The notes beneath the pieces were generated by a model, which saw only the letters and a list, made by a program, of their open reading frames with translations, ran no database searches and was not told the origin of the DNA. DNA of 23,445 nucleotides from a virus. Made by a program: the position numbers and the translations under genes. Position 1 is the stretch's first letter; each line of letters starts with the position of its first letter. Of the stretch, positions 7,864 through 22,160 are shown piece after piece. Where the stretch lies: positions 1 to 23,445 of IMG/VR virus record IMGVR_UViG_3300044591_000257; one strand, 5' to 3'.

Positions 7864-8751
7864 TTATCGAAAGTTGGCCCAGAGATAGAGATTGTCAGCT
7901 GCCGAAGGCGTCGAGGCACCGCCGCTACCACTACCGCCACCCGACACACCGACCTCAACGTAGACCGGCGACTCCCACTGGTAGAGCCGCGACGTGTCTT
8001 CTGCGAGGTAGAGCGCAGAGTCTGAGCCGGTGGCAGGGAAGTTGGTGATAGACGCATAATTGAGCGAGGCGGCTGGGCCTTGTGGGCCTGTGGCTCCCGT
8101 AGCACCCGCCGGCCCCTGAGGGCCAGTGGCACCAGTAGCACCAGTCGCACCTGCTGGCCCCTGCGGGCCAGTGGCTCCCGTGTCGCCTGCTGGACCTTGT
8201 GGGCCAGTTGCACCCGTAGCTCCCGCAACGCCCTGCGGACCCTGCGGGCCTGTCGGTCCAGCTGGGCCAGCGTCACCCTGGTCGCCCTTCGCCCCGGCGG
8301 ATCCTGTCGCGCCAGTGGCTCCTGCAGCGCCTGCCGGTCCTTGGATGCCTTGCGGTCCCGTGGCACCTGCAACGCCGGCCGGCCCTTGCGGACCAACGTC
8401 GCCTGTGTCGCCCTTAGCTCCAGCTGCACCGGCAACGCCTTGAATGCCTTGCGGTCCTTGTGCCCCAGCTGCACCAGCGGCCCCCGGAACGCCTTGCGGC
8501 CCTTGCGGCCCGACATCGCCCTGATCGCCTTTCGTGCCCGCTGGCCCGGCCGGACCTTGCACGCCAGCAGCACCAGCTACGCCTGGGATGCCCTGCGGCC
8601 CCGTAGCCCCGACGCTTCCGGTCGCGCCTGCCGGCCCAACACCGCCGGCCGCGCTCACAGACGAGCTCGAGCTCGTCACGGCGGCAGACACGACACCGCT
8701 GGAAACGGTGGCCGTGATCGGGCTGCTCGTGACGGTTGCGGTGGTCGTCAC
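7864..8751 (-). CDS. Collagen-like fibre protein
   Basis: This 295-residue protein starts at GTG 8751, which overlaps the stop of the upstream gene (GGTGACG). Residues 1-35 form a Thr/Ser/Val-rich head region. Residues 36-227 are about 64 uninterrupted Gly-X-Y triplets ([12 protein letters not shown] and a few GDQ/GAK). Residues 228-295 form a C-terminal domain with the motif [27 protein letters not shown], a common end-piece of phage fibres. Collagen-like triplets trimerise into rigid rods in phage fibres. It lies among neck genes rather than after the tape measure, so it may be a head or neck whisker rather than a tail-tip fibre. Confidence 0.92.
8071..8646 (-). repeat. Collagen Gly-X-Y triplet tract
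   Basis: About 64 consecutive Gly-X-Y codon triplets without a register break encode residues 36-227 of the collagen-like protein. At DNA level this is a 9-base periodicity with recurring blocks such as the [12 protein letters not shown] unit. The tract is prone to length variation by slippage or recombination. Confidence 0.93.
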
Positions 8752-9071
8752 CCGACTACCTCCACCTGGCCTTGTAGGGCCGTACGTCGCACGCTGCCGG
8801 GGGCATCCCACTCAAGCCGCCAGCCGTAGGTGCCAACAGGCAGGGCCGTCGTCTGCGTCTCAGTCAGTGCAATGTTCACGATCCCGGCCGCAGCGTTTGT
8901 CAGCGTCGTCGTGAATGCCGTCATCGTGTTGCCGGTGACGAGCGACGTGATAACAGCCGTCACCGTGTAGCCCGTCATCGTCGTGGGCGAGAAGTCGATG
9001 GCCGTGCTGAGCTCGTCGCCTCGGCGAAGCGACAGCCCAAGCTGGCCAGGCAGTTGTTCGTAGGTGCTCAT
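8748..9071 (-). CDS. Ig-like / baseplate-upper-protein-like phage protein
   Basis: This 107-residue protein starts [21 protein letters not shown]. The ATG at 9071 overlaps the upstream stop in an ATGA, which decides the start over an in-frame ATG at 9092. The pattern 'RGDe....idFsp..mtGytvta.it......' followed by [26 protein letters not shown] and GQVEVV is the small beta-sandwich found in many phage neck, fibre or BppU-like proteins ('GD...pvdLTGyt....' and 'lpaGtY.wdl'). It precedes the collagen-like fibre and may be its attachment platform. Function is inferred from pattern and position only. Confidence 0.78.
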
Positions 9072-12840: not shown

Positions 12841-14119
12841 CTGTGTCGTCCTCCTCGGATTGGTCCTCGGCCTCGTCGGCTGGGCTTTCCTCGTCTTCGA
12901 CTGGTGGCTCGGGCATGGGCTCTGGTGCTGGCGGCTCCTCGCCGACCTTGTCCAGCGTCGTCATGTTGAGTTGCACGAAGTGCTTGTCGCCCTCTGGCCC
13001 GATTGGGTTCAAGTTCTCAAGCTCGCGGATCTCGTTGACTGTCATCCAGCCGTTCTGCAAAGCCGAGACGTAGTAGGCCGACCGGCTGGCGTGATCGCCA
13101 CGGAGCAGGCCCGAGACGCTGTGCTCGGCGAAGTAGGTCTCGTCGTCCACGATGAGGTCGCGGCTGATGGCCGCCTCCCACCGCTTGAGATGCGGCAACA
13201 GGCAGTGTTGGACAAACTCCGTGCCCTGCACTTCAATGTTGGAGTACGTGCTGCGGGTCAGGTCTTGGATCATGTGCGGCGGCACGCGGAACGCTCGGCA
13301 GATCTCAATCACCTGATACTGCCGAGTCTCAAGGAACTGGGCCGCCTCGTTGCTGCCGGAGAGCTCGTGGGCCTTTACGCCGTTGGGCAGGACAGCCGTA
13401 CGGAACGCACGGTCAGGCCCTCGGTGCATCCGCTCCCACTGCTCGCGGAGTCGCTCGGACGCCTCGGGCGGGATCGGGTTGTCGCTCTCCAGCACGATGC
13501 CCGGCCGGGCACCGTTGCCGAAGTAGGTGCTGCCGTGGGCCTCAAGGGCTTGAGCCAAGCCGATGGCATTCTGGAAAATCTTGTACGTCGGGATCGGCTT
13601 GATGCCGTCCTCGGTCGTGAACCGCAGGGCGAAGATCTGGTCCTGCGAGTAGATCGTGATCTTCCCGCTGGGCTCCTTGTACCTGTACCGCAGCCGGCCA
13701 TCTTCCAGCCGCTCGGCCTCCATGCGAGACGAGTGCAGCGGCCACAGCTCGGAGATCGCACCTCGAGCACCTGGGCGGATCTCGGCGTACGAGGCCCCAT
13801 AGTGCAGATACATGCCAGTCATCCAATCGCGGAACTCCTGCGCCGTCTGCCACGGATTCGGCTGCATGTGCAGAAGTCGGTAGACCGGGTTTGACGGGGC
13901 CTTGGCCTTACCGCCGTTGGGCAGCCGCTCGTAGACGTGGAGTGGCAGGGAGCTCACCGCGTCAGAGATGACGCGGATGCACGCCGTGTAGGCCGAGCAC
14001 GCCATAGAGTTGTCGGCCGTGACGCGGATACCGGACGGCGTGCGGCTGCCGCCGTCACCGTGCCATTCGATGCCACGCAGGTCGATCATCTTCCAATCGG
14101 CGGCAGCGTTCTCACTCAT
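12830..14119 (-). CDS. Portal protein (HK97 family)
   Basis: This 429-residue protein begins MSENAAADWKMIDLRG. The ATG at 14119 overlaps the terminase stop (ATGA), which decides the start although the frame is open further up. HK97-type portal hallmarks are present: SAYTACIRVISDAVSSLPLHVYER, PNPWQTAQEFRDWMTGMYLHYGASYAEI, a LWPLHSSRMEAERL strand, the QDQIFALRF segment, GSTYFGNGARPGIVLE, and FRVPPHMIQDLTRSTYSNIE. The last 45 residues are an acidic, Pro/Glu-rich tail. It forms the 12-mer ring for DNA entry and exit. Confidence 0.96.
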   Translation of the reverse strand: MSENAAADWKMIDLRGIEWHGDGGSRTPSGIRVTADNSMACSAYTACIRVISDAVSSLPLHVYERLPNGGKAKAPSNPVYRLLHMQPNPWQTAQEFRDWMTGMYLHYGASYAEIRPGARGAISELWPLHSSRMEAERLEDGRLRYRYKEPSGKITIYSQDQIFALRFTTEDGIKPIPTYKIFQNAIGLAQALEAHGSTYFGNGARPGIVLESDNPIPPEASERLREQWERMHRGPDRAFRTAVLPNGVKAHELSGSNEAAQFLETRQYQVIEICRAFRVPPHMIQDLTRSTYSNIEVQGTEFVQHCLLPHLKRWEAAISRDLIVDDETYFAEHSVSGLLRGDHASRSAYYVSALQNGWMTVNEIRELENLNPIGPEGDKHFVQLNMTTLDKVGEEPPAPEPMPEPPVEDEESPADEAEDQSEEDDTDGN

Positions 14120-15678
14120 AGCGTGATGATGTCCCAAGATTGTGCGGGTGCTGGTGCGGTCGAGGTCGCGTGGATGCCGAGTGCCATGATCAGGGCGACG
14201 ATGCCGTCGATCCGCTCCGTGCTCTTGGCCTTCGACGGTTTCTTGTTTCCTTGGTGATCGCTCTGCACCGCCACGTTGGAAGCCTGCCACGACAGCACGG
14301 GGTGGCCGCCGTGCAGCAACTTGCCGCCGACAACGGCAGCCTCCAGCGCGGCCGTAGGGCTCGACATAGAGCCGTATCCCTGCCCAAATCCTAAGACGTT
14401 CAAGCCCTCGCCTTGCAGTTGAGTAGTGATCTGGTGGGCGTTCCAGCGGTCGATCGCCACCTGCCGGATGTTGTATTTCTTGGAGAGTGCCACAATGTCG
14501 GCCCGCACCTGGTCGAAGTCGGTGACGTTGCCTGGAGTCAGGTGCAGTTTGCCTGCCTTCGCCCACACGTCGTACGGCACCCGGTCACGCTTCACCCGGT
14601 CCCGCATGTTTTCCTCTGGTATCCAGAAATGAGGCTCGGCCCAGAAGGTGCCGTCGTCCAGCGGGAACAGCAGACAGAAACAGGTCGTGTCGTAGGTGGT
14701 CGCTAGGTCTAAGCCACCGAATGCCTCCCTGCCATCAAGCATCACCGGGCACGGCTTGTCGCCCTGTGCCCAGTGAGACATCTGCAAGAAGCGAGTGTCC
14801 TGCTCGGTCCACATATTCAAGTGAAGACGCTTGAACGTGTTCTCTTCGGTCGGCATGTCTTGGGCACGCTTGCACCGGACCCGCAGGTCGTCGAGCTTCA
14901 CGCTTACGCCCAGGTTGGGATTTGCTTTGCGCCACGTATCCTCGGCTGTCCAATCATCCGCGGCGTCCGCTGCGTAGATCGCAGGCAGGAAGGTCGGGTC
15001 TTTGATCGCCCCGTCCCGCACGGCCAGGGCGTACCGCCAGAGCTCCCAGCAGATGCTCTTCCTGTCGAAGCCTGCCGTGGTGATCGCCACGCACAGCGGC
15101 TGCCGCCGGGCTCCCGTGCTCGTGGTCATCACGTCCCAGAGCTCTCGGTCGGGCTGGGCGTGCAGCTCGTCGAAGATAATCCCGTGAGCGTTGAGCCCGT
15201 GCTTGGTAAACGCCTCGGCCGAGAGGGCCTTGTAGGTGGTGTGCGTGTCCTCCCGCACGATGGAGTTGCGGAACACCCGCAGCCGGCTCCGCAGCTTGGG
15301 CGAGTTCTCTACGCAGACCTTCGCCATCTCAAAGACGAGTCGGGCCTGGTCCCTGTCGGCGGCGCACGAGTAGATCTCGGCCCCCGGCTCGCCGTCAAAC
15401 ATCAACTTGAGCGCAATGCCAGCACACAGCGTGCTCTTGCCGTTCTTGCGAGGGATCGCAAGCAGGCTCGTGCGGTACTGCCGCACATCGCCGTTCATCG
15501 TGCCGAACAGTTTTCCGACGTAGTCCTTCTGCCACTGCTCAAGCACGAACGCTTTGCCGCCGAGCTCGCCCTTGCTGTGGGTCAGGTTCTCCTCAAAGAA
15601 CCGGACGGCGATGTCGGCCGCCTTTGCATCAAGCGAACATGCGGGCGTCGTCTTCGTCTTCCTTCGGGCCTTGGTCAA
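14116..15678 (-). CDS. terL: Terminase large subunit
   Basis: This 520-residue protein (MTKARRKTKT...) is the packaging ATPase and nuclease. The ATPase domain has a Walker A variant PRKNGKST (residues 76-83, Lys81), a Walker B HGIIFDE (D170/E171), and the coupling motif VAITTAG. The C-terminal RNase H-like nuclease domain begins with GGLDLATTYD (Asp324) and continues with RQVAIDRWNAH. It belongs to the Terminase_1-like group that pairs with P27-type small subunits. The ATG overlaps terS by 50 bases. No alternative ATG exists before residue 61, so the long overlap is accepted. It acts in the cytoplasm at the portal vertex. Confidence 0.97.
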   Translation of the reverse strand: MTKARRKTKTTPACSLDAKAADIAVRFFEENLTHSKGELGGKAFVLEQWQKDYVGKLFGTMNGDVRQYRTSLLAIPRKNGKSTLCAGIALKLMFDGEPGAEIYSCAADRDQARLVFEMAKVCVENSPKLRSRLRVFRNSIVREDTHTTYKALSAEAFTKHGLNAHGIIFDELHAQPDRELWDVMTTSTGARRQPLCVAITTAGFDRKSICWELWRYALAVRDGAIKDPTFLPAIYAADAADDWTAEDTWRKANPNLGVSVKLDDLRVRCKRAQDMPTEENTFKRLHLNMWTEQDTRFLQMSHWAQGDKPCPVMLDGREAFGGLDLATTYDTTCFCLLFPLDDGTFWAEPHFWIPEENMRDRVKRDRVPYDVWAKAGKLHLTPGNVTDFDQVRADIVALSKKYNIRQVAIDRWNAHQITTQLQGEGLNVLGFGQGYGSMSSPTAALEAAVVGGKLLHGGHPVLSWQASNVAVQSDHQGNKKPSKAKSTERIDGIVALIMALGIHATSTAPAPAQSWDIITL

Positions 15679-16087
15679 CTGATGAGACCCTCGCCAGTGC
15701 AGATGCTGTCAGGCCGAACTCGGCCGCGAATTTCAGCATCTGATTCCGTGCGTCACGCTTCCTGTTCCACGCCGGGTGATTGCTCACCCTACCCTTCTCG
15801 TCAACGAGAGTTGTGCCGTTGGCCTTGAGCTCTTGGTCGGCCTGGACCATGTCCGCGAACGAGTCGCAGTAGGCCGCGAGCGTCTGCTGGTGCCTCGGGC
15901 TCATGACCTTGGACGCCTCAAGCATCGGCACGATGCGTTGCCACTCAGCCGAAGCGACTTCCGACAGCCACGCCGGGGCCGGCGGTACGCCAGGTGGTGC
16001 GTCTATGCCAGCCTTATGCGGTCCCCTAACGCGAGAGCCTCGCAGGCTAAGAATCGCTTTAGGCGTCGGCTTCCTGCCTTTTCCCAC
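15629..16087 (-). CDS. terS: Terminase small subunit (P27 family)
   Basis: This 152-residue protein starts with GTG at 16087 behind GAGG (MGKGRKPTPKAILSLRGSR). It matches the P27 family: 'GKGRKPTP' N-terminus, PPGVPPAPAWLSEVASAEWQRIVPML, a central HQQTLAAYCDSFADMVQADQEL helix, NHPAWNRKRDARNQMLKFAAEFGLTASALARV, and an acidic end. It recognises phage DNA and guides terL cleavage. Only 114 bases without a supported gene separate it from the HNH gene upstream. Confidence 0.95.
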   Translation of the reverse strand: MGKGRKPTPKAILSLRGSRVRGPHKAGIDAPPGVPPAPAWLSEVASAEWQRIVPMLEASKVMSPRHQQTLAAYCDSFADMVQADQELKANGTTLVDEKGRVSNHPAWNRKRDARNQMLKFAAEFGLTASALARVSSVDQGPKEDEDDARMFA

Positions 16088-16201
16088 GGCAAAACCTCAA
16101 CTTCCAATTTCGGCCACGCCTACGCAGCGGTTACAACCGTGGTTCGCCAGCCCGCGCGGTTTTCATGATTTTCCATGCCCCCGGTGGCGCTCATCCAGAC
16201 A

Positions 16202-17194
16202 TCAGACCAAAGCAAGCCTCAACTGGCCTTGCGGCGTAGCACCTTTAGCAACGTTGCACTCCCAGCATGCACACTGCACATTGTCCCACGTGTGCCCTTT
16301 GATACCCAAGGAAATGGGCACGATATGGTCAACTGTCGGACTCAGTAAGAGCGGCATGTCATCCACAACGGTGTAGGACGCCAAGCACTTCCTTCCGCAC
16401 AGTTGGCATACGTACCGATCTCTCTCGAACACCTTGAGCGGCTTGACGCTAGAGTCCCACGGAACGCCGTGCCGCTTGCACCTCTTCTGAGCGTTCTTTC
16501 CCGATAGTCGCTTGCTTTTTGCTTTTCTCTTCTTTTTGCAAGATTTGCAAATTCGGACATATCTTGTGCTTGCATTGAGTTGGCATCCGCAATCAATGCA
16601 CAAATCGTGTAATGGATTTGCGAATCGGTGCCTGCACGCGTCGTCGCAGAACTTCCTTTGCCCTGTGGTATTTAACAAAAGGGCACCACATGCTAAGCAC
16701 GGCGTGATCTTTTGGTGCTCGCAATGCCAATCTTGGAACCACGTTGCTATCTGAATTGCTTTTCTTGTGCTGACGGGGACACCGCGAAAGTCGCGTTTTA
16801 GATCCCTCGCGTCAGCCCCTGCACACGCCTTGCCGCAGTATTCATAGCGGTTCTCTTTGACGAGATCATTGCAGCCATATCGCCTGCACACCTTCTTTGG
16901 CGCTACAGGTTCTCGTTTTTTTGCAAGGCCGGCTTTCCATCGTGCAACGCGAACCTTGGCGTCTGCATTGCAATGCTTTTTCTGGCAAATGTCGCTGTTG
17001 CAAACAGTAGCGCGGTGCCTATTCGGACTGACCGAGAACTCTGCCCCGCAGATGCGACATGCTTTCAAAAGGCTTGACGGCCACAAGCCTTTCTTTCTCG
17101 CGTCGCATCGCCTGCCTTTACAGCAATGCGGGCACTTGTTGCAATCGGCCCCGTCATTACCCAACCAGTCGCTTCCGCATTTTCTACAAGCCAT
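16202..17194 (-). CDS. Multi-zinc-ribbon HNH endonuclease, probable homing-type
   Basis: This 330-residue protein starts MACRKCGSDWLGNDG. The ATG at 17194 is preferred over one at 17296 because GGAGG lies just upstream in a hairpin. The first 260 residues carry at least five Cys pair sets (CRKC with CNKC, CRIC with CNSDIC, YCGKAC, CLAC with FCDDAC, CIDC with CKSC) separated by basic linkers, including KSCKKKRKAKSKRLSGK. The C-terminal domain is a full HNH: C263/C266, DHIVP (D289, H290), DNVQ (N305), C310/C313 and N314. The gene is visibly AT-richer than its neighbours (long T/A runs near 16510-16560). It sits between a second HNH gene and terS, so it looks like a recently acquired mobile gene. 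Confidence 0.88.
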   Translation of the reverse strand: MACRKCGSDWLGNDGADCNKCPHCCKGRRCDARKKGLWPSSLLKACRICGAEFSVSPNRHRATVCNSDICQKKHCNADAKVRVARWKAGLAKKREPVAPKKVCRRYGCNDLVKENRYEYCGKACAGADARDLKRDFRGVPVSTRKAIQIATWFQDWHCEHQKITPCLACGALLLNTTGQRKFCDDACRHRFANPLHDLCIDCGCQLNASTRYVRICKSCKKKRKAKSKRLSGKNAQKRCKRHGVPWDSSVKPLKVFERDRYVCQLCGRKCLASYTVVDDMPLLLSPTVDHIVPISLGIKGHTWDNVQCACWECNVAKGATPQGQLRLALV

Positions 17195-17214
17195 CGTCAC
17201 ACCTCCGTGTGACG
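17195..17214 (-). promoter_or_regulatory. Hairpin with the ribosome binding site in its loop
   Basis: On the coding strand CGTCACAC (17214-17207) and GTGTGACG (17202-17195) form a perfect 8-base-pair stem around the tetraloop GGAG, which is the Shine-Dalgarno core. The stem ends at the base just before the ATG (17194). When folded it should hide or restrict the ribosome binding site of the zinc-ribbon HNH gene. It would be opened by translation, temperature or a binding protein. Confidence 0.7.
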
Positions 17215-17232
17215 CCCAGCCTGCATTACTTG

Positions 17233-17547
17233 TCAAGCTAGTTTTATCGGCCGCTCTCGGATCGTCTTCCGTGAGTGGCACGCACGACATCGACACGCTC
17301 CGTTGGTGATCTCGTAACGCAGGTCGGGGCGCTCGGCCACTGGCACGATGTGGTCGGCATGGTTGGCCTGGTCGATGCGTCCACAGTCAACACATGCCCA
17401 TGCGTCACGTGTGAGCACGGCCTGCCGCCACTTGCGGTGCTGCTTGTCCGTGTACCCACGAGCCGATGCGTTGGGCCTAGCGGTGTCGTCACGCCTGCTT
17501 TGTGTACGCAGGCGAGGAGGGCGATAGCTTGGCATCCTGCTGGGCAT
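17233..17547 (-). CDS. HNH endonuclease (packaging-associated)
   Basis: This 104-residue protein starts MPSRMPSYRPPRLRTQ behind GGGAGGAAG. The HNH core is complete: CVDCG (C52, C55), ADHIVP (D65, H66), N82, and CRACHSRKT (C87, C90, H91). The N-terminus is basic. Small HNH nucleases of this kind lie immediately before terS/terL in many HK97-like phages and help terminase cleavage. Here a second HNH gene is inserted between it and terS. It begins 3 bases after the stop of the zinc-ribbon peptide gene. Confidence 0.92.
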   Translation of the reverse strand: MPSRMPSYRPPRLRTQSRRDDTARPNASARGYTDKQHRKWRQAVLTRDAWACVDCGRIDQANHADHIVPVAERPDLRYEITNGACRCRACHSRKTIRERPIKLA

Positions 17548-17550
17548 GGG

Positions 17551-17811
17551 CTACTTCCTCCCAGCACAGGTAGGGCACACGGTCCTATGGCCATCACCGT
17601 GGACGATGTAGCCTTTGCCGCCACAGTCCACACACACGGCGGGCTTAGGCTTGGGAGGCTCTGGCGTGGGCTCTGGGGCCTTCTCCTGTGCAGTCGTGGC
17701 ATATGCTGCCGACACCGCAGCCGAGGCTCTCGGGGCCTCGAGGTCGATCTGTGCAGGATCAGCAGCGAGGGCCGCAAGCACCGAGAGGATGTACTGCCAC
17801 ATGGTCACCAT
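17551..17811 (-). CDS. Small secreted/membrane zinc-ribbon peptide
   Basis: This 86-residue protein starts MVTMWQYILSVLAALAADP. Residues 4-17 form a short hydrophobic N-terminal segment (signal or anchor). A helix APRASAAVSAAYATTAQEK is followed by a Pro/Lys/Glu-rich linker and then a DnaJ-type zinc knuckle: CVDCGGKGY (C60, C63) and CPTCAGRK (C79, C82). The start overlaps the upstream gene by 7 bases; a second in-frame ATG lies at 17802. Its place at the end of the membrane-protein cluster suggests an envelope role, perhaps spanin-like or partner of the protease. I recall similar architectures in Planctomycetota but cannot assign a function. Confidence 0.75.
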   Translation of the reverse strand: MVTMWQYILSVLAALAADPAQIDLEAPRASAAVSAAYATTAQEKAPEPTPEPPKPKPAVCVDCGGKGYIVHGDGHRTVCPTCAGRK

Positions 17812-18065
17812 CCTTGCCCGTGGTTGATCACCCTGTTTCCGTTCTCATCCACCCGTGCATGGACAACGTAGCGAGCCTCTTGCGGGGGCGGCTCAGCAAA
17901 CATCATCACCCACAGGCCCGCCTTGGCGATCCTAGCCAGCAGACGCAGGACGGGGCGTGTGGGCTCAGGCTTTACGGGCGAGTAGTCGCTCGTGGCTGCC
18001 CACCACGTGAGCAGCACGGCCACCAGGCCCACAACCACGGCTGTCTGCATTTCTTTCTGGGTCAT
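17805..18065 (-). CDS. Small membrane protein
   Basis: This 86-residue protein starts MTQKEMQTAVVVGLVAVLLTWWAATSDY. One clear transmembrane helix lies at about residues 8-25, and a weaker hydrophobic stretch (LARIAKAGLWVMMF) at 43-56. The rest is a hydrophilic C-terminus (YVVHARVDENGNRVINHGQGW). The ATG overlaps the GlsB-like gene in an ATGA, indicating co-translation. Size and setting next to the membrane-anchored protease fit an accessory holin or a spanin-like component, but no family signature was recognised. Confidence 0.75.
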   Translation of the reverse strand: MTQKEMQTAVVVGLVAVLLTWWAATSDYSPVKPEPTRPVLRLLARIAKAGLWVMMFAEPPPQEARYVVHARVDENGNRVINHGQGW

Positions 18066-18289
18066 CGGTCAACGCTCCAGACGGAGTAGACGAACATCAC
18101 CACGCACGCACCGATCACGCTGCCGATCAGGCCAGCAGGGCCATTCCCAAACGGCAGGCCGCCTGCGAGAGAGCCGATGAGGCCGAGGCCGATGGTGGGC
18201 ACCCAGCCTTCTGGGCACTTGCCGGGCATCAGCCACTTGGCGATGCCGCCCGCAATAGCGCCGAAAACGAGCCACAAGAGAAGCGACAT
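18062..18289 (-). CDS. GlsB/YeaQ/YmgE-like small membrane protein
   Basis: This 75-residue protein starts MSLLLWLVFGAIAGGIAKWLMPG. It has three Gly-rich hydrophobic stretches (about 4-20, 32-46, 50-70). The pattern 'GaiAGgiAkwlmPG...gw..TiglGliGSlaGG......' followed by GSVIGA is that of the GlsB/YeaQ/YmgE family (formerly 'transglycosylase-associated' proteins). Bacterial members respond to envelope stress and their function is poorly known. It lies 8 bases after the papain-like protease, so it may be a holin or membrane-conditioning protein in the lysis cassette. It has no known enzymatic residues. Confidence 0.85.
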   Translation of the reverse strand: MSLLLWLVFGAIAGGIAKWLMPGKCPEGWVPTIGLGLIGSLAGGLPFGNGPAGLIGSVIGACVVMFVYSVWSVDR

Positions 18290-18297
18290 GGGATCTC

Positions 18298-19431
18298 CTA
18301 CTGTGCAAGGTGGAACGTGTCAGCAATGAGGCGAGCAGGTGAAGGCATCCGAGCTTCTGGCGGGAATGGCTGCAGCCAATTGCCGTGGTCCAGATTCCGA
18401 TACTTGAAATTCACGCCGCTGATGCTGAACGAATCTTGACCCGAGAGCATCGCGTCAACCGTCTGGCGATCCACCCAGAATGAGCCGTCTGGCTGGTCTG
18501 CCGGCCACTTCGGGCCTGCATTAAAGACGCCCCAGCTGTTCATGCAGAGAAGCCCATCCCGCTTGCCTTCGTTCTTGGCGTAACGCACGGCAATGAAGCA
18601 CATGCAATGCGCCCAAGAGCCTTGGCGTGGCGCGAAGCCATCGGCGTCACGCTGCGACGAAAAGCCAACTCCGCTGCAAACTGGCACGCAGTAACCGCTT
18701 TCGATGCTGGCGGCAGCCTCGTCAAAGTTTCGCACGAGGGCGACGTTTGTCGCCGTGTTCTTGTTGGCTAGCTTGGCGAGGGAAATTCCCACTTGCCCAC
18801 CGCCGCACAACAAGTTGCCCCATTCCTTCGCCCGCTGCGGGCTGTAGGTCGTCAGGTCGGCACCGGGATACTGCTGCCGGAACAGGATGCCGCCTACCGT
18901 CGGGTCTTTGCACTTGCCGGCGACCCAGCGTGCAGCTGCTCCGCCATAGGAGCCGTCGGAGTACCCTGCCTGCGTGACCGGGGGAAGCCGTCCCGCAGTA
19001 CGACTTCCCGAGTACAGGCTGGTCGTGTCCACGAGCTTGGGCGGCTCAGGCAATTCGCCCTCGGCCCAATCGACGCACTGGCCAACGTAACTTCCCATCG
19101 CCCACCCGAAACTGACACAGTCCCCGATTCCCTGCTTCCACGGGCCGAAAGGCTTGCCGTAGACCTGGCGGTGAGCACGGTCTGCGAAGCGATAGAGGAA
19201 CGTGTCCTGCCCCTTGGCGTTCTTGATCACGTCCTTGGCAGCGTCCGAGAAGAGTGGCTGGTCGAGCTCGGCCAAGAAACGCTGCGTCCCGGCAGGATCT
19301 GGCACATAGCCGAACTGCCCGTCAATGCGTGCCGCGACCCGGTGCGTGGCTCGCTCAACGAGCGCACCCAAGATCGCCATCACGATCACGAACACAACGG
19401 CAGACAGCGACCAGCGGTTAGCGCGTGACAT
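18298..19431 (-). CDS. Membrane-anchored papain-like cysteine protease, candidate endolysin
   Basis: This 377-residue protein starts MSRANRWSLSAVVF. The ATG at 19431 is preferred over one at 19455 because it has GAGG upstream and a smaller overlap. Residues 8-25 form a hydrophobic Ala/Val/Ile/Gly segment like a signal-anchor. The rest is soluble and carries the papain (C1) catalytic set: Q100 and C105 in KQGIGDCVSFGWA, H275 in GSWAHCMC, and N298 in CMNSWG. Several further cysteines (119, 173, 209, 248, 252) could form disulfides outside the membrane. It should act in the periplasm or paryphoplasm on proteins. It lies among holin-like genes with no peptidoglycan hydrolase nearby. That position suggests it is the lysis enzyme, acting on a protein-rich envelope; this is inference. 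Confidence 0.85.
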   Translation of the reverse strand: MSRANRWSLSAVVFVIVMAILGALVERATHRVAARIDGQFGYVPDPAGTQRFLAELDQPLFSDAAKDVIKNAKGQDTFLYRFADRAHRQVYGKPFGPWKQGIGDCVSFGWAMGSYVGQCVDWAEGELPEPPKLVDTTSLYSGSRTAGRLPPVTQAGYSDGSYGGAAARWVAGKCKDPTVGGILFRQQYPGADLTTYSPQRAKEWGNLLCGGGQVGISLAKLANKNTATNVALVRNFDEAAASIESGYCVPVCSGVGFSSQRDADGFAPRQGSWAHCMCFIAVRYAKNEGKRDGLLCMNSWGVFNAGPKWPADQPDGSFWVDRQTVDAMLSGQDSFSISGVNFKYRNLDHGNWLQPFPPEARMPSPARLIADTFHLAQ

Positions 19432-20702: not shown

Positions 20703-21570
20703 CCAGCCACCTCATCAAGCACCGTTGAGACGGGTTGAGGTACAATCGCTGCCCCGTCGCAGCGGCAATGCTCTCGTGAAACGTGACGTGCTCGCAGTCC
20801 GCTCCGTCGTACTTGCCGGCCAGATATGCGGCTGTCCGGTAGATCGTCAGCCCGCCCATCGCGCTACACACCGGCACAGGAGGCGACCCGACCGGCGGCA
20901 GCCACTGGTGCTTCCACCCGCCGAGGCCGTTGGTGTAGTCGTCCCAGTACGAATTCAGCCTGAGTGCCCAGCAGTCGTAGTGCAGCCACGCGGCGACCAG
21001 TTGCGTCTCACCACTGGCGTTTGTCTGAAACGCCGGGTGCTGCAAGAGCGACACGCTGGCCATGCCGTAGGCGTCAGGCATGTCGCGCATCCAGCCGATG
21101 CCATTCAGGAGCCCTCGGTTGCTCCACCCGCCCCATGCGTCCAAGTCAATCACCACGACGTAGTCGGCCTCGGCCGCACACTCACGCACCCAACGCTGGC
21201 ACGCTGTGCGGTACTCGGCCAGGGCCTCAGTCCGCAGGCCAGCAAACTCCGTGGTAAAATGCTGCCGGTTGAGCCGCTGGCTTGTGAATGTCGCCTGGCT
21301 GTGCTGGCGGCAGAAGTCGGCGAGCACCTGGTCGGTGTTGTCCTCGTTGTCGTTTGTCTCGACGTGGGATTTCCACGAGCGGCAGCCGGCGGCCAGCTGC
21401 TCGAGGAGGCCAAGGTTTTCTTTCAACCACGGGGCGCAGCTGCGGGCCAGCCCAACGAACGCCACATCGGAGTCGCGCCAGACAGACTCTCCGACGCTGT
21501 GCGTCCGCTTGAAGTCTTCCGCAAAGCAGTCCATCGGATAGAGCAGGTGCTCGGGCACATTGATTGTCAT
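20677..21570 (-). CDS. Glycosyltransferase, DLD type (CAP59-like)
   Basis: This 297-residue protein starts MTINVPEHLLYPMDCF. It shows VAFVGLARSCAPWLKENL, the segment ETNDNEDNTDQVL (71-83), RTEALAEYRTACQRWV, and the nucleotide-sugar and metal-binding VVVIDLDAWGGWS (D142-D144). After these come a DCWALRLNSYWDD region and CEHVTFHESIAAATGQRLYLNPS. This is the layout of CAP59-like and other GT-A mannosyl-type transferases ('ENNS.D.T', 'R...L', 'DlD'). No membrane segment is visible. It overlaps the FkbM methyltransferase by 4 bases (ATGA-type), so both likely modify the same glycan. The acceptor is unknown. Confidence 0.85.
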   Translation of the reverse strand: MTINVPEHLLYPMDCFAEDFKRTHSVGESVWRDSDVAFVGLARSCAPWLKENLGLLEQLAAGCRSWKSHVETNDNEDNTDQVLADFCRQHSQATFTSQRLNRQHFTTEFAGLRTEALAEYRTACQRWVRECAAEADYVVVIDLDAWGGWSNRGLLNGIGWMRDMPDAYGMASVSLLQHPAFQTNASGETQLVAAWLHYDCWALRLNSYWDDYTNGLGGWKHQWLPPVGSPPVPVCSAMGGLTIYRTAAYLAGKYDGADCEHVTFHESIAAATGQRLYLNPSQRCLMRWLDGGQHGKD

Positions 21571-22160
21571 ACGTCGCCCGGCCTTCCTATTGCCCAGCAG
21601 TGGTCAGGGTGGGCGTCTGCGTGCGGGTGCGGCACTCGCTCAACGTCTTTGCCAAGCCGCATCAACTCCTTCACCACCTCGTCAAAGGTTGCGTGGCACT
21701 CCACAAGGAACGTCGCCCGGCTCCACACGCCAGCGGAAGCGACAGACAGCACATCCACCTCGGCCCCCTCAATGTCGATCTTGATGAAGTCGGCACCGTC
21801 AGGACACAGAGCGTCCAGCGTGAAGCCTCGCACCGTCACTACTTCATGCACAGGGGCATCAGCGCACCCGCTCGCACCAATCGGGTGAACCTCCAGCAAC
21901 GAGCTCTGCTCGGAAGATGGGCGGCTGTAAAGCAGTGCGTCGCCATCGCGGCTGCAGGCCGCCCCATGGATCGCCACAGCGTTTCCGGGCAGACCAGCAG
22001 ACAGCACCTCATAGGCCCGCCCGTCAGCCTCTACGGCCGTGACGGCAGCGAATTCGCCAGCCAGCATGCGTGTCCACGATCCGACATTCGCACCGATGTC
22101 GGCGGCGTGCCTGCGAGCAACGCCAGTCAGTGAATGCAACAGCCAACGCTCAACGCTCAC
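21567..22160 (-). CDS. FkbM-family methyltransferase
   Basis: This 197-residue protein starts MSVERWLLHSLTGVARRHA. The SAM-binding glycine loop is DIGANVGSWTRML (21-33), followed by an acidic residue in AVEADGRAYE, and the family motif FIKIDIEGAEVDVL (125-138), which is highly specific to FkbM/Methyltransf_21. It should O-methylate a small molecule or sugar using S-adenosylmethionine in the cytoplasm. It overlaps the RusA gene upstream by 4 bases and the glycosyltransferase downstream by 4 bases. That pairing suggests capped or methylated glycan synthesis on the virion or host surface. Confidence 0.94.
   Translation of the reverse strand: MSVERWLLHSLTGVARRHAADIGANVGSWTRMLAGEFAAVTAVEADGRAYEVLSAGLPGNAVAIHGAACSRDGDALLYSRPSSEQSSLLEVHPIGASGCADAPVHEVVTVRGFTLDALCPDGADFIKIDIEGAEVDVLSVASAGVWSRATFLVECHATFDEVVKELMRLGKDVERVPHPHADAHPDHCWAIGRPGDV

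Follow-up and report, generated by a model that had tools for sequence, protein, structure and literature searches.

An optional zinc-ribbon HNH nuclease gene, probably of the homing type, at the cos end of HK97-like phage chromosomes

The stretch of viral DNA analysed here (positions 1 to 23,445 of IMG/VR record IMGVR_UViG_3300044591_000257; hereafter the window, 23,445 nucleotides) carries HNHzr, a gene encoding an array of zinc ribbons followed by an HNH nuclease domain (Table 1). HNHzr lies between HNHp, a packaging-type HNH gene located upstream, and the small terminase gene terS, located downstream. An earlier note on this DNA had remarked that the gene separates the usual HNH-terS pair, which is indeed the case; it had missed the cos site, also located in between, on the terS side of HNHzr. 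The difference in base composition that it reported was recovered as well: HNHzr has a GC content of ~52% (0.52) compared to ~63% for its neighbours (0.63 for HNHp and 0.62 for terS), corresponding to the minimum of the window (0.50 at HNHzr, at least 0.57 elsewhere), and the GC of HNHzr is below that of both neighbours in 43/43 distinct alleles (means of 0.550 vs 0.643 and 0.628). A search for RNA families over positions 15500-18500 gave no match, and no isolate was found sharing the 3-kb region at the DNA level. Scanning genomes for terL returned TerL proteins 41-52% identical at best, mostly from Firmicutes, so that no host was found for the window phage. The minus strand of the window also encodes a small protein upstream of HNHp with a C-terminal CxxC pair motif, diverged in relatives (17551-17811), a protein with collagen-like Gly-X-Y repeats among the structural genes (7864-8811) and an FkbM-family methyltransferase (21567-22160; TIGR01444, E=5e-18).

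Table 1. Features of the HNHzr locus in the window
Feature	Position	Strand	Basis and remarks
terL, large terminase	14116..15678	minus	profile matches
terS, small terminase, P27 family	15629..16087	minus	Terminase_4 E=1e-23; downstream of HNHzr
Conserved GGCCGAAATTGGAAGTT block, candidate TerS binding site by position	16099..16115	minus	~15-31 nt inside left end; kept across loci
cos, inferred 11-nt 3' overhang CACGGTTGTAA	16131..16141	minus	contig ends, adapter read-through, long linear records
HNHzr, zinc-ribbon-array HNH endonuclease gene	16202..17194	minus	complete ORF, ATG at 17194, 330 codons
HNH nuclease domain, own C4 site (C263, C266, C310, C313); D289-H290, N305, N314	16238..16408	minus	PF01844
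Zinc ribbon 5 (C199, C202, C216, C219)	16538..16600	minus	kept in 40/41 relatives
Zinc ribbon 4 (C166, C169, C183, C187)	16634..16699	minus	kept in 41/41 relatives
Zinc ribbon 3 (C103, C108, C120, C124)	16823..16888	minus	kept in 40-41/41 relatives
Zinc ribbon 2 (C46, C49, C65, C70)	16985..17059	minus	kept in 32-36/41 relatives
Zinc ribbon 1 (C3, C6, C21, C24)	17123..17188	minus	kept in 38-39/41 relatives
Leader hairpin CGTCACAC-GGAG-GTGTGACG, enclosing the Shine-Dalgarno, directly 5' of ATG	17195..17214	minus	predicted fold
TTGACA motif at insert left edge, overlapping HNHp stop codon; possible -35 box	17231..17236	minus	leader motif count
HNHp, packaging-type HNH gene	17233..17547	minus	PF01844 E=5.4e-7, phrog_589; upstream of HNHzr

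When aligned with 41 relatives, the cysteines of HNHzr fall into six C4 sets, five N-terminal to the HNH domain and one within it. Since these sets are conserved in 32-41 of the 41 relatives, we describe the 330-residue protein as five ribbons plus an HNH zinc site, in agreement with the earlier count of at least five Cys-pair modules ahead of a C-terminal HNH domain. PF01844 (HNH) matches residues 263-319 above cut-off (E=1.7e-9), and the catalytic residues D289, H301, N305 and N314 are invariant in the alignment, with H290 present in at least 90% of the relatives. Judged from this domain and these residues, HNHzr belongs to the HNH endonuclease superfamily; a fold search gave weak matches to the HNH domains 5vgb and 4h9d. 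The structure prediction that the earlier note had proposed (AlphaFold2; mean pLDDT 82.7, pTM 0.36) yields a model of confident small modules without a fixed overall layout, as expected of beads on a string, and the zinc sets were counted by alignment. The profile PHROG 1271 (phrog_1271) matches residues 22-319 (E=4.9e-19), covering both the ribbon and HNH regions, and the architecture has therefore already been catalogued, in a record without locus, mobility or mechanism. The modular zinc region described as unusual is thus real, but its arrangement is not unique, as it is found both in this PHROG and in actinophages.

We then located the chromosome end relative to HNHzr. Many contigs begin at one point upstream of terS, with a conserved GAAATTGGAA-like block following exactly 19 nt later in 13 of them and 20 nt later in 4; those on the opposite side end at ...AAC, 11 nt before these starts. 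The missing 11 nt vary between groups. One public viral contig (L225) terminates at ATAAAC and continues, directly past the cos end, into Illumina adapter sequence (L225:4707-4736). This pattern fits an 11-nt 3' overhang lost during library preparation; the HK97 overhang is 10 nt, also 3' (PMC11331095). In the linear records G001 (36,843 b) and G002 (38,032 b), one end lies 47-70 nt from terS and the opposite end ~70-77 nt from the HNHzr gene; G003 and G010 share these ends and lack HNHzr. From the contig ends, the adapter read-through and the long linear records, we infer that cos lies between HNHzr and terS, and therefore that HNHzr would be the last gene of the packaged chromosome. We rejected the reading of this terminal position as a mere assembly break, because in numerous independent contigs the left and right ends fall at one position, adapter sequence is present on one of them, and long linear records terminate on both sides. 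Note that the HK97 TerS site is 15-29 nt from the HK97 cos cleavage (PMC11331095), a spacing comparable to that of the conserved block inside the left end.

Occupied and empty versions of the locus were compared among relatives collected by scanning viral contigs for terL (best 80 of 342) and with an HNHzr profile (best 80 of 142). The comparison with phages lacking the gene, another check put forward from the sequence, is best illustrated by L006, in which TerL, TerS and HNHp are 99%, 97% and 95% identical to those of the window and 110 nt separate the end of the HNHp match from terS. In the window the HNHp frame stops at the left border of the insert, and in L006 it continues and terminates within the cos sequence. 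L013 and L016, with TerS 98% and 97% identical, carry HNHzr only 37-39% identical to that of the window, and HNHzr beside 97-98% identical terminases is in general 37-40% identical. Overall, the HNHzr family occupies 24/78 intact HNHp-terS intervals and is absent from 54/78, including phages with 96-99% identical TerL; this occupancy is an estimate, some near-identical contigs being included and the two queries biasing the sample. Likewise, L201 and L206 are without HNHzr beside the TerL of the L065/L109 group. The gene is therefore neither present in all relatives nor matched to its neighbours in composition, the combination that the earlier note had named as speaking against an inserted mobile gene. 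Among the best 80 of 142 profile matches, nearly all relatives with enough sequence carry HNHzr between HNHp and terS, even at TerL identities of 34-50%. A second clade is inserted between cos and terS, with the gene end abutting or overlapping the terS start (L027, L028, L050, L061, L187, L188 and others), and has its own empty counterparts (L030, L075). The insertion side follows the clade, the two clades splitting with 100/100 support; side labels were assigned by best match and the coordinates agree. With occupied and empty alleles in close relatives, HNHzr appears as an optional gene at a fixed site, as expected of a homing endonuclease, and does not behave as a packaging HNH, which should be a lineage-wide component needed with the terminase.

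Other genes are found in the same interval. ParB-like/DNA methyltransferase genes occur in L038, L098 and L121, the last two of which also carry HNHzr; a methylase of this kind might shield a target site. A DNA ligase-like gene, mostly adjoining a prim-pol-like gene, replaces HNHzr or lies beside it in L044, L051, L181, L183 and L147.

TerL identity barely predicts HNHzr identity (Spearman 0.18, 40 distinct alleles), and whole-gene moves link phages with 48-52% identical TerL. In the pair L106 and L113, HNHzr is 81% identical, TerL 48% and the flanks ~50%, the homology extending from ~45 nt inside the HNHp 3' end to near the end of the HNHzr gene. Parts of the gene are also exchanged. L101 and L102 are 97-100% identical within the initial ~500 nt of the gene, beyond which identity drops to background level; L108 and L145 form the mirror image, with the nuclease half and downstream DNA in common; and L065/L109 and L080/L108 have both flanks and the ribbon half in common with differing nuclease halves. 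In the clearest cases, the halves join around residue 160-170, in the stretch that separates ribbons 3 and 4. These alignments indicate that the ribbon half and the nuclease half recombine independently, and that HNHzr has spread horizontally into the same slot, out of step with the phage phylogeny, as homing endonucleases do. The mosaicism matches the published location of nuclease genes at the borders of exchanged segments (PMC10448857); part of it could result from ordinary homologous recombination between cos phages. We also considered HNHzr as a cos-specificity factor, a role that is unsupported because the ~80% identical alleles of L106 and L113 serve different cos cores. In L140 (488-1633), an HNHzr relative is split across two frames (27% and 82% matches) and is possibly a decaying or frameshifted copy.

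Ten allele pairs gave dN/dS values of 0.07-0.27, indicating purifying selection and leading us to reject a pseudogene reading for the family; the allele of the window is intact, with no relative close enough for its own dN/dS. The 34-nt leaders of HNHzr are predicted to fold better than those of the neighbouring genes (mean z of -1.54 vs -0.07 for HNHp, -0.19 for terS and -0.36 for terL; p=1e-9). In the 13 alleles with a hairpin of the window shape, pairing is kept in 97% of cells and two pairs show compensatory changes, and other alleles hold the Shine-Dalgarno in unrelated stems; in total, it is enclosed by a hairpin in only 27/42 distinct leaders. Such a predicted hairpin over the ribosome binding site is a common, non-defining trait of homing endonucleases, documented in I-TevI and mobE and implicated in segB (PMC3014915). 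An exact TTGACA is present in 21/42 distinct leaders, compared to 0.5 expected from shuffles; no consistent -10 box partnering it was seen in window-type alleles.

Among isolates, the nearest matches to HNHzr cover the nuclease end only (33-44% identity). By profile, gp107 of Mycobacterium phage Shauna1 is an HNHzr homologue (probability 99.8%), with three ribbons instead of five and ~23% identity across the aligned region. The right genome ends of Shauna1 and Aminay carry a small HNH gene and, after it, a larger one with zinc ribbons that lies 59-66 nt from the terminus; Arthrobacter phage 1191A has a pair of small and larger HNH genes before terS, and the right end of Horus is a 247-aa HNH gene. 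Within the first 2.5 kb (terS, terL), Tweety and Shauna1 are 98.5% identical, and Tweety ends with a single HNH gene, whose first 32 residues are those of Shauna1 gp106 and the remainder different (right ends of Shauna1 and Tweety, L303 and L308). The HNHp-type domain thus changes together with the insert, and a link between them is possible. Of 281 matching records, only 34 extend over most of the Shauna1 right end.

Overall, these data make it probable that HNHzr encodes a homing-type HNH endonuclease of the free-standing kind, and that the gene colonises the cos end of the chromosomes of HK97-like phages. Of the two possibilities initially offered, homing endonuclease or moron, the former is the better supported, by the polymorphic insertion, the recurrent slot, the gene movement and the leader hairpin, and a moron in the sense of host-benefiting cargo is unsupported. 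Comparative genomics thus provides an optional insert, recurrence in the same slot, horizontal movement, recombination of halves and purifying selection, together with a predicted hairpin. HNHzr resembles the T4 Mob/Seg, Aeh1 MobE and ICP1 zinc-finger HNH genes in being an optional nuclease gene adjoining an essential one, with DNA-binding modules at one end and the nuclease at the other, and free-standing phage homing endonucleases share the ribosome-site hairpin (PMC3014915) and the location at exchange boundaries (PMC10448857). It differs from the T4, Aeh1 and ICP1 enzymes by its five tandem zinc ribbons and its cos-end location.

In the mechanism that we propose, the zinc-ribbon array would bind conserved DNA within the empty locus. 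The HNHp 3' end, which encodes the HNHp active-site helix, is the leading candidate together with the adjacent pre-cos block, because this flank is common to otherwise different carriers; the target of the clade inserted between cos and terS must differ from it. The HNH domain would nick or cut this target in a co-infecting phage without the insert, and repair from the insert-bearing genome would copy HNHzr and co-convert flanking DNA. The insert would split the target into two sides, and its carrier would therefore be protected. By covering the ribosome binding site, the hairpin probably keeps translation from read-through transcripts low.

Alternatively, HNHzr could be a second packaging HNH, an accessory aiding TerL in cutting or processing cos, with ribbons reading a pre-cos element. 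Its distance from cos is always roughly 60-150 nt at most, it evolves under purifying selection, cultured actinophages have a two-HNH right end, and the HK97 gp74 HNH stimulates cos cleavage (PMC11331095); horizontal exchange could also occur for a useful accessory. HNHzr has in common with HK97 gp74-type packaging HNH proteins (Kala 2014, cited in PMC11331095 and PMC10448857) an HNH fold beside cos and terminase, but it is optional, carries a zinc-ribbon array and sits next to a packaging-type HNHp that remains intact. Moreover, L006 does without it with essentially the same terminase and cos, as do L201 and L206 within their TerL group, near-identical terminases function beside unrelated nuclease halves (L065/L109, L080/L108), and the closely related alleles of L106 and L113 are found at different cos cores, which together make this reading unlikely. 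It has been argued that the packaging and homing readings of terminase-adjacent HNH genes are not mutually exclusive (PMC10448857).

We consider it quite unlikely that HNHzr is mainly a weapon, i.e. an interference nuclease cutting the cos/HNHp region of co-infecting phages and kept for competition instead of homing. The intron HNH endonuclease of phage PhiPA3 does so against PhiKZ (PMC11620839), purifying selection suits such a role, the target region would be packaging-essential, and the right end may, if cos phages of the lambda type are a guide, be the first part to enter the cell; however, the frequent absence from close relatives and the movement as a unit suit homing at least equally, and one and the same enzyme may do both. 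Lastly, a passive cargo held in a generally permissive recombination junction, the nuclease having no part in its own spread, would agree with the ligase, prim-pol-like and methyltransferase genes of some intervals, but is very improbable given that the zinc-ribbon HNH family outnumbers any other recognisable cargo of the intervals sampled and is nearly confined to the cos-side locus, with catalytic residues kept under strong purifying selection.

HNHzr, read as a homing-type gene, belongs to a known kind, the free-standing phage homing-type nucleases, of which cos-end specialisation and an exchangeable zinc-ribbon array make a variant; we found no description of this combination in the literature searched. 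More tentatively, the family may be a natural retargeting system specialised to the chromosome ends of cos phages, in which exchangeable ribbon arrays joined to different HNH halves would reach new targets. Across very different terminases, the family remains tied to the chromosome end, on one side of cos or the other, and its reading and cutting halves recombine. This bears on the debate over the nature of terminase-adjacent HNH genes, packaging components or selfish homing elements: with a constant HNHp and a mobile HNHzr side by side, the two roles can be told apart. The question is testable in a cultured pair of M. smegmatis phages, 98.5% identical over their first 2.5 kb, with and without the extra gene.
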